From Heliomicrobium modesticaldum Ice1 (lineage in GTDB: Bacteria; Bacillota; Desulfitobacteriia; Heliobacteriales; Heliobacteriaceae): a DNA stretch of 64,000 bases. The stretch covers positions 1,187,001 to 1,251,000 of the forward strand of contig NC_010337.2 of assembly GCF_000019165.1 (NCBI RefSeq), written 5' to 3'. The notes under the pieces were generated by a model. It saw nothing but the letters and a program-made list of their open reading frames with translations, was not told where the DNA came from and searched no databases. Of this stretch, positions 12,268 to 60,689 are shown in pieces. The translations under genes were made by a program, and so were the position numbers. The number at the start of each line of letters is the position of its first letter. Position 1 is the stretch's first letter.

Positions 12268-12364
12268 ATCCTTTTTTGGCTTCACCCAAACGCCCTTTGC
12301 GCGGGACATTCCGACGGAGCAACTGTACTCCGACCCCTTCGGAGAGTGGACTATCCTTGTTTAA
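12260..12364 (+). pseudogene. ExeA/TnsC-like transposition ATPase, N-terminal remnant
   Basis: GTG at 12260 overlaps the stop of the preceding transposase remnant, as in intact two-gene elements. The frame reads MFESFFGFTQTPFARDIPTE then QLYSDPF, the standard N-terminus of the AAA+ ATPase partner (ExeA family). After about residue 27 the similarity stops and the frame closes at 12362-12364, inside the end of the oppositely oriented DUF190 gene. No Walker motifs remain. The breakpoint at about 12340 marks where the element was cut by recombination or deletion. Confidence 0.7.
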
Positions 12365-12680: not shown

Positions 12681-12695
12681 TTCGTCACTTCCTCG

Positions 12696-13064: not shown

Positions 13065-13074
13065 TTATGAACTC

Positions 13075-13512
13075 CTAACGACCTGTGGCGTTTTCCGAGA
13101 GTTCTTCCTCTTCGCCAAATTTATTTCTTCGATATTCGGCAATGGCTCTTGCGGTGAACAATCCAAAAGCAGACATGGCGATTCCAAGCAACACACTGGA
13201 GAAGATGTAGATTCCAAAACTCCAGTATTGCCCTTGTTGAAGCAGCTGAATGCTCTCCAATGCAAAGGTGGAGAAAGTGGTATATGCACCTAAAAACCCC
13301 GTAGATACGCCCAATCGAAGATTCGGATTTATCGAAACAAAATCCAATGTGAGTGTTAAAAATAAAGACAACGTAAAACATCCAGTAAGATTGATGATCA
13401 ACGTACCCCAGGGGAATCCACTCTGTTGTACGAAAGACGAAAAAAAATGTCCGATTTCAAACCGTAATAGGGCTCCCACAAAACCGCCTAAAGCGACTGC
13501 CAGGTAACTCAT
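13075..13512 (-). CDS. crcB: Fluoride ion channel CrcB/Fluc, first subunit
   Basis: 145 residues with four predicted membrane spans. GGFVGALLRFEIGHF, FPWGTLIINLTGCF and STGFLGAYTTFSTFALES are the hallmark Fluc motifs. The C-terminus is longer and more charged than in its partner (RRNKFGEEEELSENATGR). The ATG lies one nucleotide after the stop of the GGGtGRT gene, so translation is probably coupled. It pairs with the crcB copy immediately downstream. Confidence 0.93.
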   Translation of the reverse strand: MSYLAVALGGFVGALLRFEIGHFFSSFVQQSGFPWGTLIINLTGCFTLSLFLTLTLDFVSINPNLRLGVSTGFLGAYTTFSTFALESIQLLQQGQYWSFGIYIFSSVLLGIAMSAFGLFTARAIAEYRRNKFGEEEELSENATGR

Positions 13513-13513
13513 C

Positions 13514-14530
13514 TTATCTGGTTATATCCTTTCCATGCAGTGCGGCATCGACCATGACAGCCAGCGCGACTGTTGCACCGACAATCGGATTATTCCCCAT
13601 ACCGATAAAACCCATCATGTCAACATGAGCCGGAACCGAAGACGATCCTGCAAATTGCGCATCGGAATGCATCCGGCCCATCGTATCCGTCAGCCCATAG
13701 GATGCTGGGCCTGCCGCCACATTATCCGGGTGAAGGGTCCTCCCAGTACCGCCGCCGGAGGCCACGGAAAAGAACGGTTTGCCCTTTTCGAAACACCATT
13801 TTTTGTATATGCCGACACAGGGATGCTGGAATCGAACCGGGTTCGTCGAATTGCCGGTAATGGAGACATCTACCGATTCATGTTGGAGGATTGCGACGCC
13901 TTCATCAACCGAAAAAGTTCCATAAACCTTAACTGCAGCACGTTCCTGCTTTGAATATCTTTTTTCGCCGAGTATTTCAAGCGTAGCCGTTTTGAAGTCG
14001 TATGCTGTCTCGACAAAGGTGAAGCCCGTCATTCGGGCGATAATGTGGGCCGCGTCTTTCCCCAAGCCAACCAAAATGACCTTCAGGGGTGCTTTTCTTG
14101 CACGGTTTGCATATTTAACTACCCCCAAAGCCCCTTCCGCTGCCGCAAAGGATTCGTGACCCGCCACAAACGCAAAGGTTCGGGTTTCTTCTTTGAGCAG
14201 CATCGCGGCGAGGCGACCATGCCCGATCCCAACTTGTCGTTGATCTGCCACGGAACCTGGAACCGTAAAGGCCTGCAACCCCTCGCCGATTTTTATGGCG
14301 GCATCGATCGCATTCCTCACAGACCCTTTTAGGGCTAGCGCCACGCCTAATGTATATGCCCACAAGGCATTATCAAAGGCAATAGGTTGGATGTTTCGAA
14401 GGGTTGCCTCCACATGAATACCCGCCTCATCACAGACCCCTTTCGCCTCTTGTAAATCGGCAAGAGAAGCGGCCGCTAATGCAGCTTGAATGCGAGATTC
14501 CCGCCGTTCATATCCCTCAAACAACCTCAT
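13514..14530 (-). CDS. GGGtGRT protein
   Basis: 338 residues. The family signature GGGTGRT is present within FFSVASGGGTGRTLHPDN (about residue 263), near VAGHESFAAAEGALGV and the closing MGFIGMGNNPIVGATVALAVM. The family is conserved in anaerobes and usually encoded beside the NifU-like protein seen here directly upstream. Its biochemical function is not established as far as I know. Start ATG 14530 follows GGGGAGGAAG. It lies 14 nt after the scaffold gene and 1 nt before crcB, inside a fluoride-riboswitch operon, which suggests a link to fluoride or to damage caused by it. Confidence 0.88.
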   Translation of the reverse strand: MRLFEGYERRESRIQAALAAASLADLQEAKGVCDEAGIHVEATLRNIQPIAFDNALWAYTLGVALALKGSVRNAIDAAIKIGEGLQAFTVPGSVADQRQVGIGHGRLAAMLLKEETRTFAFVAGHESFAAAEGALGVVKYANRARKAPLKVILVGLGKDAAHIIARMTGFTFVETAYDFKTATLEILGEKRYSKQERAAVKVYGTFSVDEGVAILQHESVDVSITGNSTNPVRFQHPCVGIYKKWCFEKGKPFFSVASGGGTGRTLHPDNVAAGPASYGLTDTMGRMHSDAQFAGSSSVPAHVDMMGFIGMGNNPIVGATVALAVMVDAALHGKDITR

Positions 14531-14544
14531 ACATCTTCCTCCCC

Positions 14545-15216
14545 CTATTCCTCGCGAGGATCAATAAAGGTCTTGCCTTCCGAATAGCGTCCGTATGTAC
14601 CGGTAGCCTTTTTCAGGGCTTCCGCAGCCTCGGTGCCCTTCCGGATGAAATGCATCATGGCGCCAAGATTGACGTATTCGTATCCGATGATTTCGTCGTT
14701 TTCATCTAAGGCAAGTCGAGTCACATAGCCCTCTGTCATCTCCAGATAACGTGGCCCTTTGCTTTTAGAGCCGATATGGGTACCGACTTGAGAACGGATA
14801 AATTTTCCCAGTTCTTCCGCAGCAGAACCCTCCGGAAGTCCACCTTCTGAAAAAGCCGTTTGAGTGCGACCATAGGAAATTTGCAAAAACAACTCCCGCA
14901 TGGCCACGTTAATAGCGTCACATACGAGGTCGGTATTTAGAGCTTCCAGCACCGTTTTGCCAGGTAGAATCTCAGCAGCCATTGCTGCTGACTGTGTCAT
15001 TCCGGAGCAGCCGATTGTTTCTACCAAGGCATCCTCGATAATCCCATTTTTTACATTAAGCGTTAGTTTGCAAGTCCCTTGTTGCGGAGCACATGCGCCC
15101 ACACCATGCGTTAAGCCGTTGATGTCTTCAATCCTTTTTAGCGAAACCCATTGGCCCTCTTGGGGAATAAGGGCCGGGCCTCGTTGGGGACACCCCCGGA
15201 TCACACTGTGTAACAT
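14545..15216 (-). CDS. NifU-like iron-sulfur cluster scaffold family protein
   Basis: 223 residues. TIGCSGMTQSAAMAAEILPG resembles the NifU/IscU core, with GACAPQQGTCKLTLNV as a further cysteine region and VCDAINVAMRELFLQ, the pattern of the scaffold-like proteins that accompany GGGtGRT proteins. The ATG at 15216 follows CGGAGGAATTAAGG. It lies 31 nt after the permease and 14 nt before the GGGtGRT gene. Binding of an iron-sulfur cluster is inferred from the family and the conserved Cys positions; it has not been shown here. Confidence 0.75.
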   Translation of the reverse strand: MLHSVIRGCPQRGPALIPQEGQWVSLKRIEDINGLTHGVGACAPQQGTCKLTLNVKNGIIEDALVETIGCSGMTQSAAMAAEILPGKTVLEALNTDLVCDAINVAMRELFLQISYGRTQTAFSEGGLPEGSAAEELGKFIRSQVGTHIGSKSKGPRYLEMTEGYVTRLALDENDEIIGYEYVNLGAMMHFIRKGTEAAEALKKATGTYGRYSEGKTFIDPREE

Positions 15217-15247
15217 CCTTAATTCCTCCGTTTCTTTTTATAAAAAA

Positions 15248-15961
15248 CTAACGGGCGAACAGAAGTTGTAGCCCCGCGAGAACCAAGAGCAACGATACAA
15301 CCTTTTTGAATACACTTTTGGGTAATCGCTCGATCACCTTTCTTCCTGCCCATGTTCCCGCGATCATCGAGATACCTATGCCGAACCCGATCGCGATAAC
15401 CGCAGGGCCAATATCAAGATATCGTTGGTATATGATGATCTTCGTAACATGCATCATAACAGCAGTGACTGCTTCACTGGCAATATAAGATAGGGGAGGC
15501 AGATTAAGTGAAAAAAACAACATTGCCCCCAATGGTCCTGCGCTTCCGACCAAGCCCGATAACAAACCGACAATGCCGCCTCCGATCACCATTACCCGGG
15601 CATTATTTGGAATATCGATCTTTTTGAAATGTTGTAAGATCACAAAGCCGATAACCGCCAAGCCAATCGCTTTTGTAATAAGCTCTTTGGGAACCGTGAC
15701 AAAAGAAAATGCTCCGAGACAACTCATAGGAATGGCGCCCATTATGAAAAAGCCAACAGGCCTCCAAGAAATTTCTTTGTATCCGAAATATACTCTCGAA
15801 AGATTCCCGATTAATTGAGCAATCGTTAAGACAGGGACTGCGACGGTAGCTCCAACTGAATGGGTCAACACGGGTAGCAATAATAATGCCCCCCCGAATC
15901 CGACTGCTCCCGATACGGCTGCGGCAATAAAGCCACCGAGAGCGAATAAAAGGATGGTCAA
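15248..15961 (-). CDS. TauE/SafE-type membrane permease
   Basis: 237 residues, almost entirely hydrophobic, about eight spans. GGFIAAAVSGAVGFGGALLL and the second-half repeat GGGIVGLLSGLVGSAGPLGA are the duplicated motif of the TauE/SafE (sulfite/organic anion exporter) family. The start is taken as TTG at 15961, with TAGGAGG ending 10 nt upstream; no ATG is available in place. It is the first gene behind the fluoride riboswitch, so it is probably induced by fluoride. The substrate is unknown; export of an anion related to fluoride stress is inference. Confidence 0.82.
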   Translation of the reverse strand: MTILLFALGGFIAAAVSGAVGFGGALLLLPVLTHSVGATVAVPVLTIAQLIGNLSRVYFGYKEISWRPVGFFIMGAIPMSCLGAFSFVTVPKELITKAIGLAVIGFVILQHFKKIDIPNNARVMVIGGGIVGLLSGLVGSAGPLGAMLFFSLNLPPLSYIASEAVTAVMMHVTKIIIYQRYLDIGPAVIAIGFGIGISMIAGTWAGRKVIERLPKSVFKKVVSLLLVLAGLQLLFAR

Positions 15962-16019
15962 ACAAGAACAACCTCCTACAGAGAATGGCTGCTTACATAC
16001 AAAAGAATGACCACTTTCA

Positions 16020-16100
16020 CAAAAAGACAGACTCCCACCCGAAAAATCGAGTAGGAGTCATCATCCGCAAAACGGCTTTACCGCGAACTCCATCGCGTAT
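16020..16100 (-). ncRNA. Fluoride riboswitch (crcB motif) with expression-platform terminator
   Basis: Read on the minus strand, 16100 to about 16050 gives ATACGCGATGGAGTTCGCGG, then a short second stem and GATGATGACTCCTAC. This is the fluoride aptamer: P1 CGCG/CGCG around ATGGAGTT, with GGAGT free to form the pseudoknot with ACTCC. The same GACTCCTAC segment pairs over 13 bp with the segment ending GGTGGGAGTC, followed by TGTCTTTTT, a terminator (16020-16059). Fluoride binding should favour the pseudoknot and prevent termination, switching on the operon from 15961 down to 12351. crcB genes in that operon agree with this reading. Confidence 0.9.
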
Positions 16101-16126
16101 TCCCTTTGGTGAGTCACTCTACATAC

Positions 16127-16155
16127 AGTTTATTGCTCCTCTTGGCTATCGTCAA
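16127..16155 (-). promoter_or_regulatory. Promoter of the fluoride operon
   Basis: On the minus strand TTGACG (16155-16150), 17 nt, TAAACT (16132-16127). Transcription would begin about 20 nt before the riboswitch aptamer. Confidence 0.7.
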
Positions 16156-16371
16156 GAGAAGATGAGAAAAAACTGTAAATGCGAAACATTACCGGTGGGC
16201 ACTTTGCCATCCTTGTGTTCAATCCATAAAAGAAAGAATCAACACGGCCATGACCTTCGGCTTTTGAAAGATCAGGGTCTATGGTAGAATGACTGTAGCG
16301 CGTAGACATAGTCAAAAAATAACGCTGGGGGGGAGACAGCTGCTTCCTTACGGGGATAGCTGGTAACGCAG

Positions 16372-16524
16372 ATGTCGAAAATCGGACGAAACGGTCAATG
16401 TCATTGCGGGAGCGGAAAAAAGTATAAAAAATGCTGTATGGCCAAGGATGAAGCTATCGAAGCGCAGGTGAAGGACGCGATGGAGGTAAAAAAAAAAGAG
16501 ATCAGTTCAGACTGGACGACATGA
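16372..16524 (+). CDS. SEC-C zinc motif mini-ORF, probable N-terminus of the next gene
   Basis: 50 codons. MSKIGRNGQCHCGSGKKYKK followed by CCMAKDE is a textbook SEC-C motif (CxCxSGKKxKxCC), a zinc-binding module first known from the SecA C-terminus. The frame runs into ten A at 16488-16497 and closes with TGA at 16522-16524. The next gene's ATG at 16521 overlaps this stop as ATGA. Reading one base back at the A run makes the frame continue as KKKRDQFRLDDMIEAYREAY, joining it to the TPR protein. So it is either a separate translationally coupled peptide, a frameshifted gene, or half of a slippage product. Confidence 0.75.
   Translation: MSKIGRNGQCHCGSGKKYKKCCMAKDEAIEAQVKDAMEVKKKEISSDWTT
16488..16497 (+). 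other. A10 run: possible slippage site
   Basis: Ten consecutive A in the codons after GAG GTA. Insertion of one A in the transcript, or a -1 ribosomal step, would fuse the SEC-C frame to the downstream 698-codon frame. The fused sequence across the junction (EVKKKRDQFRLDDMIEA) is smooth and free of stops. Confidence 0.5.
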
Positions 16525-18617
16525 TCGAAGCTTATCGAGAAGCTTATTGTAAAGAGGAAAAGACGGTTGACTTTGATCCGTCAACCATGTCGGTGGCGAA
16601 ACTATTGGATCTCGGCTATCGCTTCGTGGATCAACAAAATGCCTTTGAAGGTTGTCGGGCCTGGTGGTGGGCGTGGACAAAGTTGCGCCCCCTCATCGTG
16701 GAAAAGGGTATTGATGATATCGACGCCGTAGACAAGGTGGTTAAAAGTCCGGACTATATGAGCAATTGGTGTCAGGACTTTGATGACCACTTGATTAACG
16801 AAGCCCAAAAACGTTGGATCTTTGCCATCATGCGCATCGCCTATGCCCAAGATTTTGTTCGCCTGTTGCCGAAGAGTGATCTTTTGATCATTCAAAATAT
16901 GCGGCTAGCAGTGGCTGAATCTTACGCGATTCTAGGACAGTTCGATAAGAGCGAAACGGAGTTTCGCCAGTTGATCAAGGATTACCCGCAGTGGACATGG
17001 GGATATGTGGGATGGGGAGACCTGTACAGCTATAACAAACCCGATGACCGGGAGGTCGATGTTCAGCGGGCGAGAGAAATCTTTGCGGCGGGCTTGGATG
17101 CCGGCGTCGATGAGCCGGAGTATTTAGAGCAACGAATTCGAGACCTGGATGCGTTCGTCAGCTCTGAGAAAAAGCACCGCATCGCAACACCCGTTCTAAA
17201 AACATCGAACAAATCGGGTAAAAAATGGCGCCAGTGGTATCGACAACTGCCTTTGGACCAACAGGTCGAAGTGATGATCGCGGCTATTCAGCAATCGGAC
17301 CCTTGCCTCTGGGGTGACGAATCGGATTATGGCTTGGACGATCTTTGGGATGAAAAATTGGACGATCTTTGGGACGAAGAAACAGACGATCTTTGGGCTG
17401 AAGAAGCAGACGATCTCTTTGCAAATGGGGAGGAAATGTCCGCTGGCGGAGAGAAGGCCGATGTGATGAAAAACATTGAACAAGCAGGAGAGAAGCCCGA
17501 GGAAGATGATTTGGCGGACGATCAGGACGCATGGATCATTGCCATGAGCGAGAGTCCAGCCTTGAGCGAACAACTAGAGGAGACGCTGGACGAACTGTAT
17601 CAAGAAAAGCGCTTTGCCCTTATCGCAAGACTTGTTGCCGCCCATCGGGATCATGTGGGGAGAGGAAACAGGCAAGTCTTTTGTTATTGCGCTGAGGAAC
17701 TGGCTTACTATTACCTGTATCGCCGCGAATGGGACGAACTGCGAATCCCTCTGCGATGGCTGGTCGATGCCCCGGAACATAACATCAACCAGATTCTACC
17801 GGTGCTGAGCACATTGGTCGCTTCCGGAGAAACCGCCCTGGCCGTTTCTTTCGCTACATCTGTCCGCCAGTCCATCTTAGAGACCGAGGGATTGATGTGG
17901 GGCGTCGATGACGATATCGTGGCGGTGCTCCGCGCTCGCCGATTAGAGCAGACATATGATCAACTTCAAGGAGGCCAAGGGCCTGATTGGAAAGCCCTGG
18001 TCGCTGATCTTGCCCAAGTGGGATGTAAGACGACGCCGAATTCTCTGGCGATGCTCAAGGCGGGCCTGACAGATGATGTGTCCGGCGATGTCCTCCGTGA
18101 AGGGTTGTGTAGCTCACTGGTGGGTGGGCTCGAATCGTTATCTTACGGTTTTTATCGGTTCATGCGCCAGAAAAAGAACATGGACTTCACCTGCGCTGAC
18201 CTGATCTGGAGACGGTTTGTCTTTTTTATGACCTGTTATGTTCAAAAAAAGAAAGCGACGGACAAGCTGAGGTTCCGATTCACCAAAAAAAAGCTGGAAT
18301 CTGCACTGATGGACTGGCTTGGTCTGAATTCTATGGGCCTTTCGAACAAAAAACCAGACAGCGTCGTTTTGCTGTGGGGGTTGCCCTATGTCTATGATTA
18401 CCTGAAAACCACCGGATTGATCGATGAAGATTGCTGGCAAAAGACGGTGGATCTTGTAGCAGTCGTTAAGGACGAAATTCTCTATGTTCTTGACGGGGAA
18501 CTCTGGAAATACGCTTTTGTTCTACAATGGACACCGGCAGATGCGGTGGGGGAGACGCCCTGGCTAGAAAAGGAATGTTTCGGCTATTGCCTTCGCGATA
18601 TCCGGTCCCGACAATAA
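16521..18617 (+). CDS. Large acidic TPR-like protein linked to a SEC-C motif
   Basis: 698 residues from ATG 16521; soluble. A TPR-like stretch, VAESYAILGQFDKSETEFRQ, lies at about residues 130-150, and a very acidic insert with four 8-residue DDLW-type repeats at about 272-304. The family was not recognised, but SEC-C motifs at the N-terminus of long TPR-like proteins are common, which supports the frameshift model for the upstream mini-ORF. The SNF2 helicase gene follows 140 nt later, past a terminator-like structure. No enzymatic motif is visible. A role as an adaptor or scaffold is a guess. Confidence 0.7.
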   Translation: MIEAYREAYCKEEKTVDFDPSTMSVAKLLDLGYRFVDQQNAFEGCRAWWWAWTKLRPLIVEKGIDDIDAVDKVVKSPDYMSNWCQDFDDHLINEAQKRWIFAIMRIAYAQDFVRLLPKSDLLIIQNMRLAVAESYAILGQFDKSETEFRQLIKDYPQWTWGYVGWGDLYSYNKPDDREVDVQRAREIFAAGLDAGVDEPEYLEQRIRDLDAFVSSEKKHRIATPVLKTSNKSGKKWRQWYRQLPLDQQVEVMIAAIQQSDPCLWGDESDYGLDDLWDEKLDDLWDEETDDLWAEEADDLFANGEEMSAGGEKADVMKNIEQAGEKPEEDDLADDQDAWIIAMSESPALSEQLEETLDELYQEKRFALIARLVAAHRDHVGRGNRQVFCYCAEELAYYYLYRREWDELRIPLRWLVDAPEHNINQILPVLSTLVASGETALAVSFATSVRQSILETEGLMWGVDDDIVAVLRARRLEQTYDQLQGGQGPDWKALVADLAQVGCKTTPNSLAMLKAGLTDDVSGDVLREGLCSSLVGGLESLSYGFYRFMRQKKNMDFTCADLIWRRFVFFMTCYVQKKKATDKLRFRFTKKKLESALMDWLGLNSMGLSNKKPDSVVLLWGLPYVYDYLKTTGLIDEDCWQKTVDLVAVVKDEILYVLDGELWKYAFVLQWTPADAVGETPWLEKECFGYCLRDIRSRQ
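17337..17432 (+). repeat. Four 24-nt tandem repeats coding DDLW(D/A)E units
   Basis: Units start at 17337, 17361, 17385 and 17409, each beginning GACGATCT. They encode DDLWDEKL, DDLWDEET, DDLWAEEA and DDLFANGE. The repeats stay in frame, so unit number may vary by replication slippage without breaking the protein. Confidence 0.85.
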
Positions 18618-18628
18618 AAGAGACGAGT

Positions 18629-18706
18629 GCTCCTGGAATACGAGGGCGCCATTTGCGGCCATTGTGGAGACTCATGACGTCTCATGTCAGGAGCCTCCTT
18701 TTTGTT
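18629..18706 (+). terminator. Probable terminator after the TPR gene
   Basis: GCTCCTG (18629-18635) pairs with CAGGAGC (18688-18694), with an inner stem GAGAC/GTCTC (18667-18683), followed by CTCCTTTTTGTTTTT. Confidence 0.5.
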
Positions 18707-18760
18707 TTTATGATAGAATAAAAGTCAACGCATGCCCGCAAACAGGTGGTGAAAAAACAG

Positions 18761-21028
18761 ATGAACAAGCAGATTGCCTTTTCTGTCTCACCGGAGGCGT
18801 TGCAGACGAAGGGCCTGCTCTTGCAAGGGGACATTGCCAAATTGCTTTCTCCCTTTGCCGGGAAAACGATTTACTTGCAAGATCCCATTTTGAATTGGAT
18901 CAGGTGTAAAGTCAATTCCCAGGGAACCCTTCTCCAAAGCCCTCAATTGGGGAAGTTTCTAAAAAATATGGGCTCCTCCACCTTTGCAATACGACAGATA
19001 GGCAGTGAGGAATTTTTCGTTTTTCCCGTCGCTCTTCGGCAACCGAGCCCTCGGGCGAATCGGGCTGGAGCAGAACGCTCAGCCGCCCAAAAGGGGACGA
19101 ACAGGGAAAGCACGAAAAAAAGGATGGCGACCCTGAGCGCGAAGGCAACTGCAGCGGTCGCGGCACAGCGGGCGTCCGCCGTGACACCAGCGTCAACAAG
19201 TGAAAAGACACAGGGAACCAGTCTGCTCGACCCGGTCCAACAGCTTGTCCAGGAGTTTGAGCAGGGCTCACGAGGCAATGTTGTGGAGATCCGCCTCGAC
19301 CGGGAGAAGGGAAGGCCGCTTGTTGAAAAGATCATCAACGGCCATGGGGCCAGCGTTGACGATCTGTACCTGCGCCGGCAGGCCCTGCAGTTTTCCTTGC
19401 ACCCGGGTTTCGACACGCTCCTGTCCTTAACGGCTGTTCGCGATATGACCCCCTTTGACTACCAGATCCGGACGGTCCGTCATGTGCTGGCGAACCTGCG
19501 CGGGCGGGCGCTCCTTTGTGACGAAGTGGGGATGGGCAAAACAGTCGAGGCCGGATTGATCGCCCTGGAATACATGCTGCGCGGCTTGGCCCGGCGTGTG
19601 CTCATCCTGGCGCCACCGTCGCTTGTCTCACAATGGCGCGAGGAGATGCAGGTCAAATTCAACCTTGATTTCATCACCTATGATGATCCGGCCTTTAAGG
19701 CCCATCACGAGCCTTGGACCTTTTTCCCGCGCATCATCGCCTCCATCGACACGGCAAAGCGGGAGAGTCATCGACTACAGATCGGCGCTGCCGCCTTCGA
19801 TCTGGTCATCTGCGATGAGGCCCACCATCTGAAGAATCGCCGTACGCAGGCTTATCAATTGGTGAGCCAACTGCAGAAGAAGTATATCCTTCTGCTGACA
19901 GCGACGCCGGTGGAAAACGATCTGGAAGAGTTGTTCAATTTGATCACGCTGCTTTTACCGGGGCAGCTGGAGACAGCGGCAGCCTTTAAGAAAAAATACA
20001 TCACCCGCGGCGATGCCTTAAAACCAAAAAATACGGAGGAACTCAAGGCGCTCGTTCGTGAGGTGATGGTCAGAAACCGCCGTTCTGAAACAGGGGTCAT
20101 TTTGAGCCGCCGCTATGCTGAGACGATTCGGTTGCAGCTGAGTCCGGAGGAGATGGCTTTTTACCGGCGGCTCACTCATTTTGTCCGAGGCTTTTTTATC
20201 GATGGGCAGGACAAGCCCCAGGGCGGGGCGAGTTTGCTGACCCTGAAGGTGCTGCAGCGGGAGATCGGCAGCAGCATTGAAGCGGTGTTGCCGACGCTGA
20301 CCAAGATGGCCGAGCAGCCATCTTACGCGCCGGAGATGCGCCGGCTTTTTGCCGCATTGCTGGAGCAGGCCAAAAAGGTGCCGCATCGGGCAAAGGCCGA
20401 CGCGCTGGTGCAACTATTGAGAGGGCTCAACGATAAGGTGATCGTCTTTACCGGTTTTTCGGAGACCCATCGCTACCTGGTTCGCCGGCTGACTGAGGCG
20501 GGCTTTGCGGTGGCCCAGCTGCACGGCGGCATGAAGCGGTTGGAAAAGGAAGAGCAGGTGCGCTATTTTGCCGACGTGGCCCAAGTGCTCCTGTCTACGG
20601 AAACGGGCAGTGAAGGACGGAACCTGCAGTTTTGCCGCTGTCTTGTCAATTATGATTTGCCTTGGAATCCCATGCAGATTGAGCAGCGCATCGGCCGGAT
20701 TCATCGCATCGGCCAGGAGCGGGATGTCTATATCTACAACCTGTCTGCTCAGGATACGTTGGAAGCCCACATGTTGGAACTGCTGGATGCCAAGATCAAC
20801 ATGTTCCAACTGGTCGTCGGCGAGTTGGATATGATCTTAGGCAACCTCAAGGAGAACCAGGGCTTTGAGGATATGGTGTTGAACGCTTGGCTGCAGTCGG
20901 CCGACGAGCGGGAGATGGAGGCCCAGATGGACAAAGTGGGCGATCAACTGCTGGAGGCAAAAAACCACTATCTCGCCGTCAAGGCTATCGATGAGCGGCT
21001 ACTGGGAGAGTTGGTGCCTGATGAGTGA
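18761..21028 (+). CDS. SNF2-family DEAD/H-box helicase
   Basis: About 755 residues. ATG 18761 is preferred, with AGGTGGTGA ahead; GTG 18746 is possible. An N-terminal region of about 220 residues precedes the motor. Motor motifs: LLCDEVGMGKTVEAGLIALE (Walker A, about 252), LAPPSLVSQW, VICDEAHHLKN (Walker B DEAH), LLTATPVEND, then the second RecA lobe with VIVFTGFSETH, LSTETGSEGRNLQFC and WNPMQIEQRIGRIHRIGQ. This is the SNF2/RapA branch of ATP-driven DNA or nucleoprotein translocases. The next gene overlaps its stop, so the two products probably work together. RapA-like remodelling or phage defence are possible; no DISARM or other defence partner is nearby. Confidence 0.9.
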   Translation: MNKQIAFSVSPEALQTKGLLLQGDIAKLLSPFAGKTIYLQDPILNWIRCKVNSQGTLLQSPQLGKFLKNMGSSTFAIRQIGSEEFFVFPVALRQPSPRANRAGAERSAAQKGTNRESTKKRMATLSAKATAAVAAQRASAVTPASTSEKTQGTSLLDPVQQLVQEFEQGSRGNVVEIRLDREKGRPLVEKIINGHGASVDDLYLRRQALQFSLHPGFDTLLSLTAVRDMTPFDYQIRTVRHVLANLRGRALLCDEVGMGKTVEAGLIALEYMLRGLARRVLILAPPSLVSQWREEMQVKFNLDFITYDDPAFKAHHEPWTFFPRIIASIDTAKRESHRLQIGAAAFDLVICDEAHHLKNRRTQAYQLVSQLQKKYILLLTATPVENDLEELFNLITLLLPGQLETAAAFKKKYITRGDALKPKNTEELKALVREVMVRNRRSETGVILSRRYAETIRLQLSPEEMAFYRRLTHFVRGFFIDGQDKPQGGASLLTLKVLQREIGSSIEAVLPTLTKMAEQPSYAPEMRRLFAALLEQAKKVPHRAKADALVQLLRGLNDKVIVFTGFSETHRYLVRRLTEAGFAVAQLHGGMKRLEKEEQVRYFADVAQVLLSTETGSEGRNLQFCRCLVNYDLPWNPMQIEQRIGRIHRIGQERDVYIYNLSAQDTLEAHMLELLDAKINMFQLVVGELDMILGNLKENQGFEDMVLNAWLQSADEREMEAQMDKVGDQLLEAKNHYLAVKAIDERLLGELVPDE

Positions 21029-35816: not shown

Positions 35817-36482
35817 TTGAAGACGGAGAAGGAAAAAGGCCCTGTCTACGACCCGGCCCTTTCGGCGCTCCGCCAAGCAGCGGAAGGCGGCGACGCAGAG
35901 GCCCAGTACCAGTGGGCCCTCCGCTGCGAAGAAGGCCGGGGGGTTCCCCAAAGCGCAAAACAGGCCGTCGAATGGTTTGCCCGCGCGGCCGAACAGGGAC
36001 ACGGACTGGCCCAACTCAGCCTGGCCATGCTCTATGAGGATGGAACGGGCTTGGCCCCTGATGAGGCGGAGGCGGCGCGCTGGTACGAGAGAGCGGCGGC
36101 CCAAGGGATCGCGGAGGCGCAGTTATACCTGGCGCGCCTTTTTGCCGAGGGACGCGGCGTCGATCGCGACGACAGCCGCGCGCTGGCGTGGTACCGGAAA
36201 GCGGCTGAACAGGGTGAGGCCGATGCCCAGTTTGAATTGGCTCTTCTCTACGCCCTTGGCCAGGGTGTGGAAAAAGATGACGCCGAAGCGGTGCGCTGGT
36301 ATCGCCTAGCGGCGGAACAGGGCCACATGGACGCCCAGTTCAACCTGGCCTTCATGTATGAGGAGGGTCAGGGTCTCCCGCAAGACCGGAAGGAAGCCCT
36401 GGCATGGTATCGCAAGGCGGCGGAGCAGGGCGACGAGGAGGCCCAGAAAAAAGTGGCCGCCCTCTCCGGTAGGAGACGATAA
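35817..36482 (+). CDS. Sel1-repeat (SLR) protein
   Basis: 221 residues made of about five Sel1-like repeats of 36 residues, each with the pattern GDAEAQYQWALRCEEGRGVP...AVEWFARAAEQG. Four copies are near perfect, suggesting recent or constrained duplication. No signal peptide, so probably cytoplasmic. TTG at 35817 is used because GAGGTGA lies 6 nt upstream. Sel1 proteins act as scaffolds for protein-protein contacts; its partner is unknown. A terminator follows before pglX. Confidence 0.85.
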   Translation: MKTEKEKGPVYDPALSALRQAAEGGDAEAQYQWALRCEEGRGVPQSAKQAVEWFARAAEQGHGLAQLSLAMLYEDGTGLAPDEAEAARWYERAAAQGIAEAQLYLARLFAEGRGVDRDDSRALAWYRKAAEQGEADAQFELALLYALGQGVEKDDAEAVRWYRLAAEQGHMDAQFNLAFMYEEGQGLPQDRKEALAWYRKAAEQGDEEAQKKVAALSGRRR

Positions 36483-36496
36483 TCGGGAACAGGAAG

Positions 36497-36542
36497 GCCC
36501 CCGGAAAGACCGTAAGGGATTTCACGGGGGCGCCCTTGTTTT
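36497..36542 (+). terminator. Terminator-like hairpin before pglX
   Basis: GCCCCCG (36497-36503) pairs with CGGGGGC (36525-36531), followed by GCCCTTGTTTTC. Confidence 0.55.
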
Positions 36543-36571
36543 CAAAAAGTATGGCCGAGACGGAGGCGTCG

Positions 36572-39500
36572 ATGAACAAAGGAGCCTTAAAGAATTTTGC
36601 CGTCCGCGCCCGGGCGGAACTGGTCCGCCTGGTTGCGCAAGCCGCCCAAGGCACCGGTGCGGCCGATGCCACTAGCGCTGGCGCGCCGAATGCTGTTGAA
36701 GCCAAGGCCAAGGCACCTCATGCGGATGCATCTACCGTCGAAACCGTCGCCTATACCTGGTTTATCCGCTTGATCGCCTTGCGCTTCCTGGAAGTGAGGG
36801 GCTACTTGGGGCGGGACGATCAAGGGCAGAACCACTGCCGGCAGGATGGACAAGGGGCAGAAAGGGAGGGCTTGCGCCTGAACGACCCGGGGGACGAGCG
36901 GCGACGCATGATCGAACAGTGCCGCTTCTGGCAGTCGATTACAGACCTCTTCGCCGATCCCTGTCCTCCCTGGACGGAGCGATGGCTGCCGGAGGCGATC
37001 TGGGAAAGGGAAGGTGTAGCCCACCGCCTCTATGGGGAGATCCCGGAGGAGGACTTTCGCCATGTGGAGGTGCTGGGTTGGCTGCACCAGTTCTACTGGG
37101 CAGAGAAAAAAGATGAGGTCTTCACCCGTCCTGCAGCTCACAAGATCGCAGAGGCTGATATCCCGGCAGCGACCCAGTTGTTCACACCCCACTGGATCGT
37201 CCGGTTCATGGTCGAGAATTCGCTCGGGCGGCTCTGCGCGCAAGGGGATCGCCACGGGCGCTGGACCAGCCGGTGGCGCTATTTTCTGCCTGGTGAAGGG
37301 GAAGCGGGACGGGCTGCAGATGGGATGAGGCAACCGGGAACGATGATGCCGGGAGCGAGGAGACTTGAATCCATCCGGCTGCTCGACCCTGCTTGTGGCA
37401 CCGGTCATATCCTGGTCTACGCCTTCGACCTGCTGGCTGACCTGTATGAAAGCTGCGGGCTCCCCCCGGAAGACTATGTCCCGATCATTTTGGAGAAGAA
37501 TCTGGCTGGTCTTGATGTAGATGAGCGTGCGGCCCGTCTCGCCGTTTTTGCATTGCTCATGAAAGCGAGGGAACGGACCCCGCTGGTTTTTCAACAGCCG
37601 CCGCGAGTCAGGGTATTCCCATTGCAGGAGACGAAAGGGATGGATGTCCGCGCGATCGCCTGTTTGCTTGCCGGAGCAGATGGAGCGGTCGAAGGGGAAG
37701 GTGCGGACGAATCAGCGGACAAAAAGCCTTGCGAAGACAAGCCCGACCAGAGTGAGCGCGGCTCTGACGCATTGGCCTCACTGCTGTCGCTCTTTGCAGA
37801 GGCCAACCACTTCGGTTCTCTGCTGCGACCCGTAAAGATCGCTTTCGACTACTGGGAACAGCGGCTCGACGCGATCGAGCGGGAACGACGGAATCGATGG
37901 GGCGCCGAAAAAACAGTCAGCGATGACGGGTCGCCTCTGAATGACAGGTCACTGGACGACGTTTTGCTCCAGGTAAGAAAAGTGTTGCGGCAGGCGCGGA
38001 TGCTGACAAAAACCTATGATGTGGTGATCACCAACCCGCCCTATATGGGCATCCGCAACATGAATCCCGAACTGCGTCGCTTCCTTCGGGAGCACTATCC
38101 CCGGACGAAGGGCGATCTCTTCGCCGCTTTCATGGAACGGATGGAGTCCCTTGTTGCGGAAGGCGGCTACCATGTGACTGTCACCATGCAGTCTTGGATG
38201 TTCCTGACCACCTATGAGGAATACCGGCGGCATCTGCTTCGGGAGTACGGGATCATCGCCATGGTTCATATGGCCAACATGGTCATGGGTATCGCCTTCG
38301 GCACTGTGGCGACGGTGCTGCGCAAAGGCGATCCGAAGGCGGTGGGAACCTTTGTTCACGTGGCCCCGGAGGATCTGGAAGGTGACGCGCCGAGCGCTTT
38401 TCCACCGATGGGCAAGCGGTATCTCCATCGCGGCGGAGAGGCTTTTCTCGCCATCGCCGGTTCACCTATCGCCTACTGGGTCTCCGCGGCGGTACGGGCG
38501 GCCTTCGCAAAGAACCCGCCCCTGCGCCGCTTGGCAGAGCCCAAGCAAGGATTGGCCACCGCCGACAACGACCGCTTCCTCCGGCTCTGGCATGAGGTCA
38601 GTGTCGCTGATATCGGCTTCGACTTGACAGGACCGGAGGCGGCGCTCGCTTCGGGGCGGCGATGGATCCCCTATAACAAGGGTGGGCGTTACCGCAAGTG
38701 GTACGGAAACCAGGATTATGTGATCGATTGGTCCGGTGACGGCGAGGCGGTGCGGCAGCACGCCCCTTCGGTGATCCGCAACCGCGACTGGTACTTTCGG
38801 GAAGGGATCACCTGGTCTTTTGTCAGTTCATCCAAATTCGGCGTTCGCTATACGCCGCCGGGATTCATCTTCGATGTGGGGGGGTCATCCCTTTTTCCGA
38901 AAGATCAGGACCGGCTGTTCCTGCTCGCTTTCCTGTGCAGCAAACTGTCCTTCTATCTGATGCGGGTCTTGAACCCGACACTCAACTTCCAGGTCGGCAA
39001 TATCGCCGCCCTGCCTGTCCCCGACTGCCCGCCCGAGGATCGACGACGGCAGGCCATCGAGCGCCTGGCTGAGGAAAACGTCCGGCTGGCTCGGCGGGAT
39101 TGGGATGACCGAGAAAACTCCCGAGATTTTGATGCGCACCCTTTTTTGACGTATCGGCGAGGGGCCGTGACGCTGGAAGACGCCTTCTCCCGCTGGCAAA
39201 AGGAGGCCGAAAAGCGATTGGAGCAGATGCGCGCCAATGAGGAAAAGGTCAATGCCCTGCTCCTGTCCTTGTACGGCCTTGATGGGGAGATGTCTCCGGC
39301 CGTCAGTGACGATGACATCACCCTCGCCCGGGCGGACCGCGAAGGGGATGCCCGCTCCTTTCTGTCCTATGCCGTCGGCTGTATCCTCGGGCGTTACTCG
39401 CCCGATCGGCCGGGTCTGATCTATGCCGGCGGTGTTTACGACGAAGGGGCGTATGGCCCCTTTCGACCTGTACCGGACGGCATTCTCCCGATCGACGAAC

Positions 39501-40003
39501 GGCAAAGCGGCGCCGATGACGTCGTCAGCCGGTTGCAGTCATTCCTGGCCTACGTCTTCGGTGAAGAGACGGTCGAGGAAAACCTAAACTGGTTGGCCGA
39601 CGCCCTCCGCCGCAAAGGCGGCGAGACAGGGGAGGAGCGGCTGCGTCGCTATTTTCGCAGTGAGTTCTATGGCGATCACATCAAGGCCTACCGCAAGCGA
39701 CCCATCTACTGGCTCTTCGCCTCTTCCCCGTCGAGAGCCTTCCAGGCCATCGTTTATCTGCACCGCCTGGGGCCGGATACACTGGAGCGGCTCCGGCGTG
39801 ATCACCTGGCGCCCCGGTTGGCGGCGGTGCAAAGCAGGTCGGTAGCAGAGGAAATGGCGGCTTATGCGAGGCAACTGACGGAGTTTGCCCGGAAAGAGAT
39901 CGCCATCTCCCTGGATGACGGCGTATTGCGGAACTACGGGCGCCTGCGCCCCTTGCTGGCCGATTTTGACCCATTCTCCCGTCGTGCCGTGAAGATGTGG
40001 TAA
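36572..40003 (+). CDS. pglX: BREX-type adenine-specific DNA methyltransferase PglX, solitary
   Basis: About 1143 residues. ATG 36572 is preferred, with GGAGG ahead and the family's NKGALKNFAVRARAELV start. Region 200-240 has ATQLFTPHWIVRFMVENSLG, then the SAM motif LLDPACGTGHILVYAFDLL (about 269), NLAGLDVDERAARLA, and the catalytic NPPYMGIRNMN (about 489). The long C-terminal half matches PglX target-recognition and coiled regions. In BREX, PglX methylates a non-palindromic adenine site to mark self. None of BrxA, BrxB, BrxC, PglZ or BrxL is in the window; the neighbours are a Sel1 protein and a dehydrogenase. It may be an orphan methylase or a type IIG-like enzyme. Confidence 0.88.
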   Translation: MNKGALKNFAVRARAELVRLVAQAAQGTGAADATSAGAPNAVEAKAKAPHADASTVETVAYTWFIRLIALRFLEVRGYLGRDDQGQNHCRQDGQGAEREGLRLNDPGDERRRMIEQCRFWQSITDLFADPCPPWTERWLPEAIWEREGVAHRLYGEIPEEDFRHVEVLGWLHQFYWAEKKDEVFTRPAAHKIAEADIPAATQLFTPHWIVRFMVENSLGRLCAQGDRHGRWTSRWRYFLPGEGEAGRAADGMRQPGTMMPGARRLESIRLLDPACGTGHILVYAFDLLADLYESCGLPPEDYVPIILEKNLAGLDVDERAARLAVFALLMKARERTPLVFQQPPRVRVFPLQETKGMDVRAIACLLAGADGAVEGEGADESADKKPCEDKPDQSERGSDALASLLSLFAEANHFGSLLRPVKIAFDYWEQRLDAIERERRNRWGAEKTVSDDGSPLNDRSLDDVLLQVRKVLRQARMLTKTYDVVITNPPYMGIRNMNPELRRFLREHYPRTKGDLFAAFMERMESLVAEGGYHVTVTMQSWMFLTTYEEYRRHLLREYGIIAMVHMANMVMGIAFGTVATVLRKGDPKAVGTFVHVAPEDLEGDAPSAFPPMGKRYLHRGGEAFLAIAGSPIAYWVSAAVRAAFAKNPPLRRLAEPKQGLATADNDRFLRLWHEVSVADIGFDLTGPEAALASGRRWIPYNKGGRYRKWYGNQDYVIDWSGDGEAVRQHAPSVIRNRDWYFREGITWSFVSSSKFGVRYTPPGFIFDVGGSSLFPKDQDRLFLLAFLCSKLSFYLMRVLNPTLNFQVGNIAALPVPDCPPEDRRRQAIERLAEENVRLARRDWDDRENSRDFDAHPFLTYRRGAVTLEDAFSRWQKEAEKRLEQMRANEEKVNALLLSLYGLDGEMSPAVSDDDITLARADREGDARSFLSYAVGCILGRYSPDRPGLIYAGGVYDEGAYGPFRPVPDGILPIDERQSGADDVVSRLQSFLAYVFGEETVEENLNWLADALRRKGGETGEERLRRYFRSEFYGDHIKAYRKRPIYWLFASSPSRAFQAIVYLHRLGPDTLERLRRDHLAPRLAAVQSRSVAEEMAAYARQLTEFARKEIAISLDDGVLRNYGRLRPLLADFDPFSRRAVKMW

Positions 40004-40096
40004 AAACATCTGCCCCTTGCATGGCAGGCTCCTTATTTTGCGGCACCGGCGGCTCTCTCGGCGCTGGTCTGCACTATAATCAGCACAATAGAAGGC

Positions 40097-40125
40097 TCGA
40101 CAAGTCTCACCCTTGGCGGTATGAT
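40097..40125 (+). promoter_or_regulatory. Promoter of the dehydrogenase gene
   Basis: TCGACA (40097-40102), 17 nt, TATGAT (40120-40125), 42 nt before the ATG at 40168. One base off consensus in each box. Confidence 0.6.
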
Positions 40126-40167
40126 CATAGTGTTCGTCCTTCTTTGAACGTAGAAAGGAGCGCCTCG

Positions 40168-41154
40168 ATGAACCATTCACTGCGCCCGAAAGTGCTCGTT
40201 ACACGGGAGATACCTCAGCCGGCTCTCGACCGGATCAAGGAGTTCGCCCGCCTCGATCTCTGGCCGGCCTTCCCGCCGCCGGAAAAAGGTGAACTCCAGC
40301 GGATGCTCGCCGACGCTGACGCCTTGCTCTGCATGATCACCGACCCCATCGACGACGATGTCATCGAAGCCGGTAAAAAGCTGCGCGTCATCGCCAATTA
40401 CGGTGTCGGTTATGACAACATCGATATCGCCGCTGCGACCCGGCGCCGGATCGCCGTCACCAATACACCGGATGCGCTCACCGAAGCCACCGCCGACCTG
40501 GCCTTTGCCTTGCTGCTGGCAACGGCCCGCAACCTGATCGCCGCAGACCGGTTCACACGGGACGGCTTCTGGATCGCCTGGCATCCCCAACTGTTGCTAG
40601 GGCGGGATGTCTTCGGCTCAACGCTGGGCATCGTCGGCCTCGGACGGATCGGCGAGGCGGTGGCCCGCCGGGCCCGCGGCTTTAACATGCATGTTCTCTA
40701 CACCGCCCGCCGTCGCAACCCGAAAGCCGAGGCGGAACTGGGGATTGAGTACTGCACCCTTGAGGAACTGCTGCGCCGGTCGGACTTTGTATCCCTCCAT
40801 ACGCCGCTGACCCTGGAAACGCGCCACCTGATCGGCGCCAAAGAGTTGAATATGATGAAGCCGACGGCCATCTTGATCAACACGGCCCGCGGCGGCGTCG
40901 TGGATCAAGAGGCGCTGACCGAAGCGCTCCAGCAAGGGGTGATCGGCGGCGCCGGTTTGGATGTCTTCGCTGAAGAGCCCGTCGCTCCGGAGGAGGCGCT
41001 GCTGGAATTGCCCAACGTCGTTGTCTCCCCCCATATCGGCAGTGCCACCGTGGAAGCGAGGACGCGGATGGGCTTGATGGCGGTGGAAAACATCCAGGCC
41101 GTTCTGGAGGGACGCCGTCCACCCAATCTGGTCAACAGCGAGCTGTTTTCATAA
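40168..41154 (+). CDS. D-2-hydroxyacid dehydrogenase, glyoxylate/hydroxypyruvate reductase-like
   Basis: 328 residues. NAD(P)-binding GIVGLGRIGEAVARRARGF (about 150), catalytic Arg in NTARGGVVDQEAL, Glu in VFAEEP and His in SPHIGSAT show the complete active site of the 2-hydroxyacid dehydrogenase family. VIANYGVGYDNIDIAAATRR and ATADLAFALLLATARN match the glyoxylate reductase subgroup. Likely reduces glyoxylate or hydroxypyruvate in the cytosol. GAAAGGAGCG precedes the ATG, a promoter is at 40097 and a terminator follows, so it is monocistronic. Substrate choice cannot be settled by sequence. Confidence 0.9.
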   Translation: MNHSLRPKVLVTREIPQPALDRIKEFARLDLWPAFPPPEKGELQRMLADADALLCMITDPIDDDVIEAGKKLRVIANYGVGYDNIDIAAATRRRIAVTNTPDALTEATADLAFALLLATARNLIAADRFTRDGFWIAWHPQLLLGRDVFGSTLGIVGLGRIGEAVARRARGFNMHVLYTARRRNPKAEAELGIEYCTLEELLRRSDFVSLHTPLTLETRHLIGAKELNMMKPTAILINTARGGVVDQEALTEALQQGVIGGAGLDVFAEEPVAPEEALLELPNVVVSPHIGSATVEARTRMGLMAVENIQAVLEGRRPPNLVNSELFS

Positions 41155-41308: not shown

Positions 41309-42367
41309 ATGGCAGGATTTTTCAGCAAGCTTTTTGGCGGATCCGGCAAACCCGCCGGCGGGACAGTGCCGCAAGCCGGGACCGCGAAGGCTGCGGCGGC
41401 CGGTTCCCCTGTTGAGGCTGTCCGGGCGAAGGAATCGCGATGGAACCTGTTCAGCCTGACGCAGCCCATGCCCTACTATCGATTGGGCGATATCAGCATC
41501 GTCGATGCCATCCGTGATTTTTATGTCGACGTGCCGGAGGACATGAAAGCTGCCTTCCGCGCCAAAAACCCTGACATCGTCTTTCATCGGGACAAGTCCT
41601 TCGACGGTTTTCATTACTACTCCGACATTCCCATGCGCTCCGGCATCTATGACTTGGTGGAACGGATCAACCGCCACCGCCTGCTGGCCGCCCAGGAATG
41701 GCTGGCCTCCGGCGAGGTCCCTGTCAACCGGCCCAAACTGGGCGTCCTGCACATTAACCCCTACGGCAAGACAGGCAGAGCCGGTGAAAACGCCCTTGAA
41801 TTGCAGATCTTCCGCACCGATGCGTTCACCCACCGCGTCTTCCGGTCCGTCTATAAAGAGCTGCAGGCGGCCAACCATGAGATGCTCACCATGAAAACAG
41901 CCACGGAAGTCAACCGCTACAACGCCTTCCTGACGGAACTGAAGGTACATGCCTGGGTGACCCTGCCGAGCGACGGCAGCGAAGCTATCGTCCCCGGTAG
42001 CCAGACGCCTGCCGGCGCGACCTTGTACGGCGAACTGCTGGAAGAGGACCTGCAAGCGGGAACGTCCCATTTCAGCCTCGTCCGATGGCTCTCCCGCCAC
42101 CTGGCCGAGGCGGCGGGAAGGGCGCCAAGCGCCTTTTCCGAGCTCGAAAGCGCCATCCGCGGCTATGAGTTGTTCGTGGACAAGGCCGATTACAGCGTTT
42201 GCCTGACCGTCTCCGTCGCGCTGAAGGATGCCCCGCCGGCCCTTGCCGATAAGGCCGTTCCCTTCACCGGTGATGAAGTGGCCCGGCTTATCCAGCAGCC
42301 GATGAGCCCTGCCGGCGAGTACACCCTCCGGTTGGTGGCGGCGCGCAAGGGCATTGACCTTGACTAG
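41309..42367 (+). CDS. Unrecognised cytoplasmic protein
   Basis: 352 residues, no family recognised. The N-terminus MAGFFSKLFGGSGKPAGG is followed by an Ala/Gly/Thr-rich linker to about residue 45, then a folded-looking region with YRLGDISIVDAIRDFYVDVPE, RDKSFDGFHYYSDIPMRSGI and NPYGKTGRAGENALELQIFRT. A C-terminal part repeats a similar size again. No signal peptide, membrane span or known motif. An amphipathic N-terminal helix could bind a membrane. TATAAT at 41279-41284 and GAGGTGAGG before the ATG support expression. Terminators bound it on both sides, so it is a single-gene unit. Confidence 0.75.
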   Translation: MAGFFSKLFGGSGKPAGGTVPQAGTAKAAAAGSPVEAVRAKESRWNLFSLTQPMPYYRLGDISIVDAIRDFYVDVPEDMKAAFRAKNPDIVFHRDKSFDGFHYYSDIPMRSGIYDLVERINRHRLLAAQEWLASGEVPVNRPKLGVLHINPYGKTGRAGENALELQIFRTDAFTHRVFRSVYKELQAANHEMLTMKTATEVNRYNAFLTELKVHAWVTLPSDGSEAIVPGSQTPAGATLYGELLEEDLQAGTSHFSLVRWLSRHLAEAAGRAPSAFSELESAIRGYELFVDKADYSVCLTVSVALKDAPPALADKAVPFTGDEVARLIQQPMSPAGEYTLRLVAARKGIDLD

Positions 42368-58805: not shown

Positions 58806-60689
58806 GTGCGCCCGGCATGGGCGTTGTCTCTAGGGTGGAAGTCCCGAACGCCGAAGGTGGCAGTAGGCGTTAGCTTAAGGCAAGGGTGTCCGCCGCGAGG
58901 CGGAATCTGAAGGAAGCCAGCGGCAAACCTCCGGCCCGAGGACCACGAACCCCAGGTGAGGCTAGCGGCAGTTGGATGAGCTTGCCGAACAAAGCGAAGT
59001 CCTTGTCACCGAAGGCTGCCGAGAGTAAATGGGGCGGGTAGATGGAGGGAAAGGCAACGTTCTTACCCGGGGAGGCCTGCCGGGGGACCAAGTAACTTGG
59101 GAAACCACGCCGAAAGGCGTGGCTGAACCGGCAGGAGTCAGCAGAGGTCATAGTAGGCTGGCCCGACGTCCGGCCAGATGAAGGACCGAACATGATGGAA
59201 GGGGAAGCGACGATGCGTTCGCGTGACGCGCAGAGACAGCCGAATATCCCGAAAGGGAACTGCCAACGGGAGGAAGCGGTGAATCCGCAGGGGACCGGTG
59301 GAGTGCCGAGCGCGTTACCGGCACAAGAAGCGAAGCAACCCCGCGAAGAGACGTATGACCTGATGGAGAAAGTCGTCGAACGAGGGAACATGACGGAAGC
59401 GTATAAGCGAGTCATGGCCAACAAAGGCGCGGCCGGAATCGACGGTATGGGGCTAGAATCCCTGCGCCCGTACCTAAAAGAGGAATGGTCGCGCATTAAA
59501 CAGGAATTGTTGGAGGGGACCTATCGACCGCAACCGGTCCGGCGGGTTGAAATTCCCAAACCCCAAGGCGGAACACGGAAGCTGGGCATTCCCACTGTCG
59601 TCGATCGACTGATCCAACAGGCCCTGAACCAGATCCTGATGCCGATCTTCGACCCTGACTTTTCCACGAACAGCTACGGATTTCGTCCGGGAAAGAGTGC
59701 GCACCAAGCGGTGAAGAAAGCGAAGGAATACATCGCCGACGGCTACCGATGGGTGGTTGACATGGACCTGGCCCAGTTCTTTGATCGCGTCAATCACGAC
59801 ATTCTCATGGCGCGCGTAGCGCGCAAGGTGAAGGACAAACGAATCTTGAAGTTGATCCGAGAATACCTCAAGGCCGGGGTCATGCTCAACGGGATTCGTG
59901 TGAAGAGCGAGGAAGGAACACCCCAGGGAGGTCCACTCAGCCCTTTGCTGGCGAACATCATCCTGGATGATTTGGATAAGGCACTGGAAAGCCGGGGACA
60001 TCGCTTCTGCCGGTACGCCGACGACTGTAACGTCTACGTCCGCAGTCGACGGGCAGGGCAACGAGTGATGGAGGGTATGGCAAAGTTTCTGGAGGGGCGG
60101 TTAAAACTGCAGGTCAACTGGGAGAAAAGCGCAGTCGACCGACCCTGGAACCGAAAGTTTCTGGGGTTTTCATTTACGTGGCATAAGGCAGCAAAGATTC
60201 GGCTCGCCCCCCAAACGGTGAAACGGGTGAAAGAGAAGATTCGCCAGTTCACTGGGCGGAACCGAAGCATTGCGATGGAGGACCGACTGGTCACCCTCAA
60301 CCAATACCTGAAAGGCTGGATGGGCTACTTTCGACTCATTGACACGCCAAGCGTACTTAAAGAGTTGGATGAGTGGCTTCGCCGACGACTGCGGATGTGC
60401 CTGCTCAAGCAATGGAAGCGCCCGAAGACACGAAGACGAAACTTAGTGGCGTTGGGGATCCCGGAGGAATGGGCATGCAACATCAGCGGCTCACGAAAAG
60501 GATATTGGCGTCTGTCCTTGACCCCGCAAATGAATAAAGCCCTTGGCCTCGCCTACTGGCGGGAACAGGGCTTAGTCAGTTTAGTCGAAACATACCAATC
60601 TCATCGTCAACCAGCATGAACCGCCGTATACCGAACGGTACGTACGGTGGTGTGAGAGGACGGGGGTTAATCACCCCCTCCTACTCGAT
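58806..60689 (+). mobile_element. Complete group II intron
   Basis: The 5' end GTGCGCCCGGCATGGGCG is a typical group II boundary. Domain I structures run to about 59190, the reverse transcriptase frame lies in domain IV, and after its stop the domain V-like hairpin (GAACCGCCGTATACCGAACG with GGTACGTACGGTGG) and domain VI with the branch region GGGGGTTAATCACCCCC lead to a 3' end near 60689 (CTACTCGAT). Total about 1.9 kb. Insertion immediately after a terminator stem is a habit of class C introns. The exact 3' boundary is an estimate. Confidence 0.85.
59213..60619 (+). CDS. ltrA: Group II intron reverse transcriptase/maturase
   Basis: About 468 residues. RT domain: VEIPKPQGGTRKLGIPTVVD, QQALNQILMPIFDPDFSTNS, YGFRPGKSAHQAV, DMDLAQFFDRVNHDIL, GTPQGGPLSPLLANIIL and the catalytic YADDCNVYV (about 272). 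After it the maturase X domain (FLGFSFTWHK...LNQYLKGWMGYFRL). No H-N-H endonuclease domain at the C-terminus, so mobility uses the RT alone. ATG 59213 follows AAGGGGAAGCG; ATG 59192 is also open. Intact, so the intron may be mobile. Confidence 0.95.
   Translation: MRSRDAQRQPNIPKGNCQREEAVNPQGTGGVPSALPAQEAKQPREETYDLMEKVVERGNMTEAYKRVMANKGAAGIDGMGLESLRPYLKEEWSRIKQELLEGTYRPQPVRRVEIPKPQGGTRKLGIPTVVDRLIQQALNQILMPIFDPDFSTNSYGFRPGKSAHQAVKKAKEYIADGYRWVVDMDLAQFFDRVNHDILMARVARKVKDKRILKLIREYLKAGVMLNGIRVKSEEGTPQGGPLSPLLANIILDDLDKALESRGHRFCRYADDCNVYVRSRRAGQRVMEGMAKFLEGRLKLQVNWEKSAVDRPWNRKFLGFSFTWHKAAKIRLAPQTVKRVKEKIRQFTGRNRSIAMEDRLVTLNQYLKGWMGYFRLIDTPSVLKELDEWLRRRLRMCLLKQWKRPKTRRRNLVALGIPEEWACNISGSRKGYWRLSLTPQMNKALGLAYWREQGLVSLVETYQSHRQPA

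Follow-up and report, generated by a model that had tools for sequence, protein, structure and literature searches.

The closest described relatives of the protein reported here are the BrxX/PglX methyltransferases of type-I BREX, a phage-defence system made up of several proteins. Neither BrxX of E. coli nor PglX of Acinetobacter methylates when expressed alone (PMC6326788, PMC9122589, PMC11842806), and the N-terminal domain (NTD), the C-terminal domain (CTD) or an insert in the methyltransferase domain (MTD) have been proposed as cis-inhibitory elements of BrxX (PMC11842806). The target-recognition domain (TRD) is the most variable part of PglX in BREX (PMC11842806). Persistent BREX-like methyltransferases have also been described from archaea, such as HG5 in Haloterrigena, with m6A in CTGGAG (PMC10609329). 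In the literature collection searched, we found nothing on the methylome of Heliomicrobium modesticaldum or on solitary PglX.

We analysed a 64-kb stretch of the H. modesticaldum genome (hereafter the window; positions 1,187,001–1,251,000 of the single 3,075,407-bp contig of this closed 3.08-Mb genome), which carries the only pglX copy of the genome. The mechanical open reading frame spans 36536–40003 from a TTG (1155 aa). The likely start is the ATG at 36572, which has ACGGAGG, a GGAGG-type ribosome site, just upstream and yields a protein of 1143 aa (36572–40003, + strand); the start at 36497 given in the initial annotation falls inside the gap between pglX and the preceding Sel1-repeat gene. 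The protein belongs to the NCBIfam family BREX_1_MTaseX (NF033452; 1016 bits against a cut-off of 500), scores 1053 bits with the PADLOC PglX model, and matches the solved BrxX/PglX structures 8c45 and 9ewz nearly end to end (E ~ 1e-170). It carries the SAM motif I DPACG (as DPACGTGH) and NPPY (as NPPYMG) and retains the equivalent of the catalytic T243, so that the full-length PglX with SAM and NPPY motifs described initially is a real and intact frame, which we annotate as a solitary type-I BREX-like adenine methyltransferase. An AlphaFold2 model of PglX built from six sequences was discarded (mean pLDDT 49.7).

A type-I BREX system, in which pglZ and brxC lie with brxA, brxB and brxL beside pglX, is not present at this locus. 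Profile searches detected no PglZ (PF08665), BrxC (NF033441) or BrxL (PF13337) in the whole closed genome, and our own profiles, run on the window, detected no BrxA or BrxB in its 64 kb. The initial observation that the 64 kb hold no BREX partner thus stands and, for PglZ, BrxC and BrxL, extends to the entire genome; the suggested search for a BREX locus elsewhere that lacks its own pglX returned none. These three proteins were likewise absent or under the cut-off in the four PglX-bearing relatives (G004, G003, G001, and G002). The annotation of a pglX as BREX-1 does not, then, imply that BREX defence is present. Of note, one further genome of the Heliobacteriaceae, in which neither type-I PglX nor BrxC was detected, encodes a BrxL-like ATPase near the start of a contig (G005:C28, 46–1482; L127).

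Such solitude is unusual, because nearly every type-I PglX in about 75 other neighbourhoods lies within a BREX cluster. In an even draw of Bacillota, 40 of 398 genomes had a type-I PglX over the cut-off. We inspected about 75 PglX neighbourhoods from this draw, other relatives, and plasmids with our own profiles of BrxA, BrxB, BrxC, PglZ, and BrxL, setting aside four contig-end or short-contig cases (L059, L060, L098, and L129). Within this sample, which is weighted to Bacillota and to the contents of the collections searched, only seven neighbourhoods were without BrxC, PglZ or BrxL: the window, four further Heliobacteriaceae loci (L018–L021), L065, and L097. The genomes of the last two also hold complete BREX clusters (L064 and L066 for L065; L092 for L097), and among these neighbourhoods a solitary PglX in a BREX-free genome was found in Heliobacteriaceae only. 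The L065 protein (G064:C1:3437000–3456900, PglX at 8372–11731), the third PglX of a closed genome, stands alone and has a broken metal site; it could provide the two clusters of that genome with an additional specificity or be another stand-alone enzyme. Candidate solitary copies on plasmids were rejected, since every plasmid neighbourhood opened in full contained BREX genes. Of two hits in viral contigs, one lay within a BREX cluster and the other on a 7-kb contig where no partner was found.

Orthologues of the window pglX occupy the same place in two congeners (G004, 87% identity; G003, 71%), and the sister genus (G001 and G002) has a solitary relative of 36–41% identity at a different genomic location; the full-length frame is intact in all five species. 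The three congeners (the species of the window and those of G004 and G003) share the same arrangement, with no cognate nuclease or partner alongside, which is the pattern of a solitary adenine methyltransferase conserved in its lineage. In the tree, the window protein forms one clade with L018 and L019 (support 100, stem 0.92 changes per column), while L020 and L021 form a separate clade (stem 0.89) placed elsewhere among BREX proteins. Constraining both Heliobacteriaceae groups to one clade was nevertheless not rejected (p-AU 0.27). We therefore dropped the claim that the two groups are certainly independent and count the solitary lineages as three or four, with one or two departures of PglX from BREX within Heliobacteriaceae.

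The dN/dS of PglX was 0.20–0.23 in both solitary clades (Nei-Gojobori, own script). For the pairs of the window with L018 and L019, it was 0.11–0.13 in the TRD, 0.10–0.17 in the two core parts of the MTD, 0.20–0.24 in the CTD, 0.30–0.38 in the NTD, and 0.34–0.42 in the MTD insert, the second half of the MTD being as constrained as the TRD; dS was modest for L018 (0.29) and higher for L019 (1.04), which makes the L019 figures rougher. Judged by these ratios, the window PglX is kept intact by purifying selection that is strongest on the target-recognition and methyltransferase domains.

We transferred domain borders and key residues from E. coli HS BrxX (PMC11842806) by alignment. The NTD (aa 1–164, 36572–37063, +) is followed by the MTD (aa 165–626, 37064–38449, +), which contains DPACGTGH, NPPYMG, and a variable insert (aa 351–480), by the TRD (aa 627–819, 38450–39028, +), and by the CTD (aa 820–1143, 39029–40000, +). 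Equivalents of the catalytic T243 and of N508-P-P-Y511 are present in every solitary PglX. Loop residues equivalent to F592 and I595, which touch the flipped adenine, are unaligned in the Heliobacteriaceae proteins, and some BREX proteins lack them too. At the base-reading positions of E. coli BrxX (681, 684, 751, 784, and 823), all three congeners have Q, A, R, V, and N, and because of this identity the recognition specificity seems to be fixed across them. We propose no motif, as the TRD shares at most 44% identity with the three compared enzymes of known specificity.

The two ends of the protein have changed. The NTD of the window PglX is shortened to 164 aa, and in all solitary PglX it spans 108–177 aa compared with 191–220 aa in BREX-linked proteins, every solitary protein being shorter than every BREX row. 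The CTD metal site (D997, D999, D1012, and Y1113 in E. coli numbering), a site conserved among BrxX although not a formal criterion of the PglX/BrxX family, is not kept: the window PglX has V, D, D, and H. At least two metal ligands were lost in 7 of 7 solitary proteins, one of which (L097) is degenerate as a whole, compared with 1 of 63 BREX-linked proteins when Asn or Glu was accepted in place of Asp. None of the 12 most divergent BREX proteins had lost two or more; counted by lineage, the loss occurred in 4 of 4 solitary lineages (p = 0.0005 against these 12), or in 3 of 3 (p = 0.002) with both Heliobacteriaceae groups taken as one. Under a strict definition (exactly D, D, D, and Y), 8 of 61 BREX rows also miss at least two ligands, and the contrast weakens (p = 0.0007). 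In addition, the CTD helical segment around R1145 and K1152, which contact the DNA tail, is shortened to 26 residues in the window protein and L018 against a median of 54. Since the contrast was framed after seeing the same data and comprises few lineages (three or four), we treat the degeneration of the NTD and metal site in solitary PglX as a lead from the alignments.

We think it probable that a type-I BREX methyltransferase lineage left the BREX machinery before the three Heliomicrobium species split, and that it now acts as an autonomous site-specific m6A methyltransferase. The TRD would recognise a single asymmetric sequence of roughly 6 bp that does not vary, and the NPPY pocket would methylate an adenine within it. 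No partner would be required, given that N- and C-terminal elements suspected in BrxX of keeping the enzyme inactive, or of docking BrxB, BrxC or PglZ, have degenerated. This is the simplest reading because there are no partners, catalysis and recognition are under selection, and the NTD and metal site are degenerate; the genome-wide solitude, the intact catalytic residues, the focused purifying selection, and the degeneration were each observed directly, and from them we infer that the window PglX methylates DNA and does so without partners. The mark would either serve the host as an epigenetic signal or passively shield its DNA from a restriction enzyme whose site overlaps. Among the four possibilities listed in the initial annotation, a stand-alone methylase is the one best supported by the absence of BREX, the kept catalytic residues, the signature of selection, and the genus-wide orthologues. 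Several points count against it: the best-studied PglX proteins are inactive alone, so that autonomy would be an exception; the losses in the NTD and CTD could reflect relaxed constraint after partner loss, without any gain of activity; the degeneration contrast comprises three or four lineages and was framed on the data that it was tested on; and the F592 and I595 equivalents are unaligned in the Heliobacteriaceae proteins.

The same inactivity of E. coli and Acinetobacter PglX in isolation (PMC6326788, PMC9122589), taken with the binding of E. coli BrxX to its site in the presence of SAM (PMC11842806), would fit a site-specific DNA-binding protein that has kept recognition with catalysis switched off and works as a regulator or roadblock. 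That the TRD is, together with the MTD core, the most constrained domain also speaks for such a protein. However, a pure binder would need neither the full set of catalytic residues, which is kept, nor a second MTD half as constrained as the TRD, and we regard this explanation as unlikely.

An autonomous methyltransferase must also be weighed against a modification arm serving restriction or exclusion, with its effector encoded at another place in the genome or belonging to no recognised type, and here the neighbouring genes bear on the argument. Both neighbours named initially were confirmed. Upstream lies a Sel1-repeat protein gene (35817–36482, +; 221 aa; Pfam Sel1, 181 bits), adjacent to pglX in G003 and G004 as well; downstream lies an ordinary D-2-hydroxyacid dehydrogenase (ORF 39997–41154, probable ATG at 40171). 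Between Sel1 and pglX we found a terminator-like hairpin (36485–36543, +; folding energy −40.6 kcal/mol, z-score −3.9) with a T-rich run after it. The two other congeners (L018 and L019) have this hairpin at the same place and with the same fold, and it has no Rfam match. Its position suggests that transcripts of Sel1 stop there or are attenuated ahead of pglX. The remainder of the flanking block is kept too, with other genes inserted on either side, and in the sister genus the dehydrogenase and the next ORF (41309–42367, +) also lie together, at a place without PglX or Sel1. That ORF encodes a 352-aa protein without a Pfam match that occurs in 8 of 9 Heliobacteriaceae genomes (43–91% identity to the window copy), which makes it a family-specific conserved gene.

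The proposed comparison of neighbourhoods therefore came out divided: Sel1 adjoins pglX in all three congeners, but no Sel1 lies within about 9 kb of the solitary PglX of the sister genus. Because the flanking block is conserved as a whole, the adjacency is to be expected, and because the conserved hairpin separates the two genes, a functional tie between Sel1 and PglX is weak, as is the suggested minimal system built on it. Other observations favour a modification arm more generally. Plasmids must be pre-methylated for H. modesticaldum, so active restriction exists (PMC9145376), and an SNF2-type helicase (18746–21025, +) that resembles PADLOC BrxHI and DrmD at 250 bits is encoded 15 kb upstream of pglX, although it is probably a general helicase. 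Against this, no nuclease was seen beside pglX in the three congeners, and DrmB is absent from the genome of the window. On balance we hold a modification arm to be improbable.

We consider it very unlikely that the gene is the decaying remnant of a BREX locus that was lost. The long stem branch and the lost conserved positions of the NTD and CTD point that way, yet the frame is full-length in five species, the catalytic residues are kept, and dN/dS has been about 0.2 since the species split, which disfavours the relic suggested initially. A type IIG restriction enzyme-methyltransferase that itself cleaves DNA, another of the initial suggestions, is scarcely credible: the PADLOC type IIG model gives 946 bits and REBASE formerly listed PglX proteins as IIG (PMC12707154), but the PADLOC PglX model scores higher, Pfam and NCBIfam searches returned methyltransferase families only, with no attached nuclease domain, and relative to BREX PglX the N-terminus is shortened rather than extended.

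Taken together, the solitary proteins raise a broader and more tentative idea, namely that PglX left BREX repeatedly, in three or four lineages, each time becoming a partner-independent methyltransferase and shedding the metal site of the CTD along with some of the NTD. We find this conceivable rather than likely. Were it true, the CTD metal site and NTD would be the switch that makes BrxX dependent on BrxB, BrxC, and PglZ, and natural, already relieved enzymes would be available for study. A PglX that has been maintained free of partners in no fewer than five species amounts to a natural experiment on why BREX PglX needs them. If the window protein methylates alone, its comparison with BrxX would indicate which elements inhibit the enzyme or dock its partners, the CTD metal site and the NTD being the foremost candidates.

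Several other features of the window were recorded. A 698-aa protein without any Pfam match (16521–18614) is encoded beside the SNF2-type helicase. The stretch 9001–19000 has a GC content of 0.43–0.53 compared with about 0.6 around it and is a possible island, with a tRNA-Ala alongside (9180–9255) and a DDE transposase (10217–11578). Two small CrcB-like membrane genes (12696–13512, −) lie about 2.5 kb from an upstream fluoride riboswitch (16045–16106, −; RF01734, 46.5 bits), with other genes between. Group II intron domains (58889–60619, +; RF02001, 132 bits; RF01998, 64 bits) precede an ORF (59192–60619) that is possibly an intron-encoded protein.

DrmMI of class-1 DISARM belongs to the same methyltransferase superfamily, and the PADLOC DrmMI model gives 716 bits on the window PglX. 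This is below the score of the PglX model, and of the class-1 DISARM set (drmA, drmB, and drmC) the genome of the window lacks at least DrmB. A congener does encode DrmB (G004:C35:2229–3962, 598 bits) and may have a DISARM-like system. The archaeal BREX-like enzymes resemble the window protein in being PglX-like methyltransferases kept across a genus, but they are archaeal and are likened here by description, not by sequence (PMC10609329). With BrxX/PglX of type-I BREX (E. coli HS, Salmonella, and Acinetobacter NEB394), the window PglX shares full-length homology, the order NTD-MTD-TRD-CTD, and the DPACG and NPPY motifs. It differs from them in the absence of PglZ, BrxC, and BrxL from its genome, in its shortened NTD, in a CTD that has lost metal ligands and some of its helical segment, and in a TRD that is conserved across the species of its genus where that of BREX is the most variable part. 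CamA, Dam, and CcrM are solitary (orphan) adenine methyltransferases conserved in their lineages without a restriction partner. The window PglX is like them in both respects, whereas they belong to different subfamilies, are considerably smaller, and act at known targets in known roles. We conclude that the window PglX is real, solitary, selected, and unusual, and is a variant within a known enzyme family.
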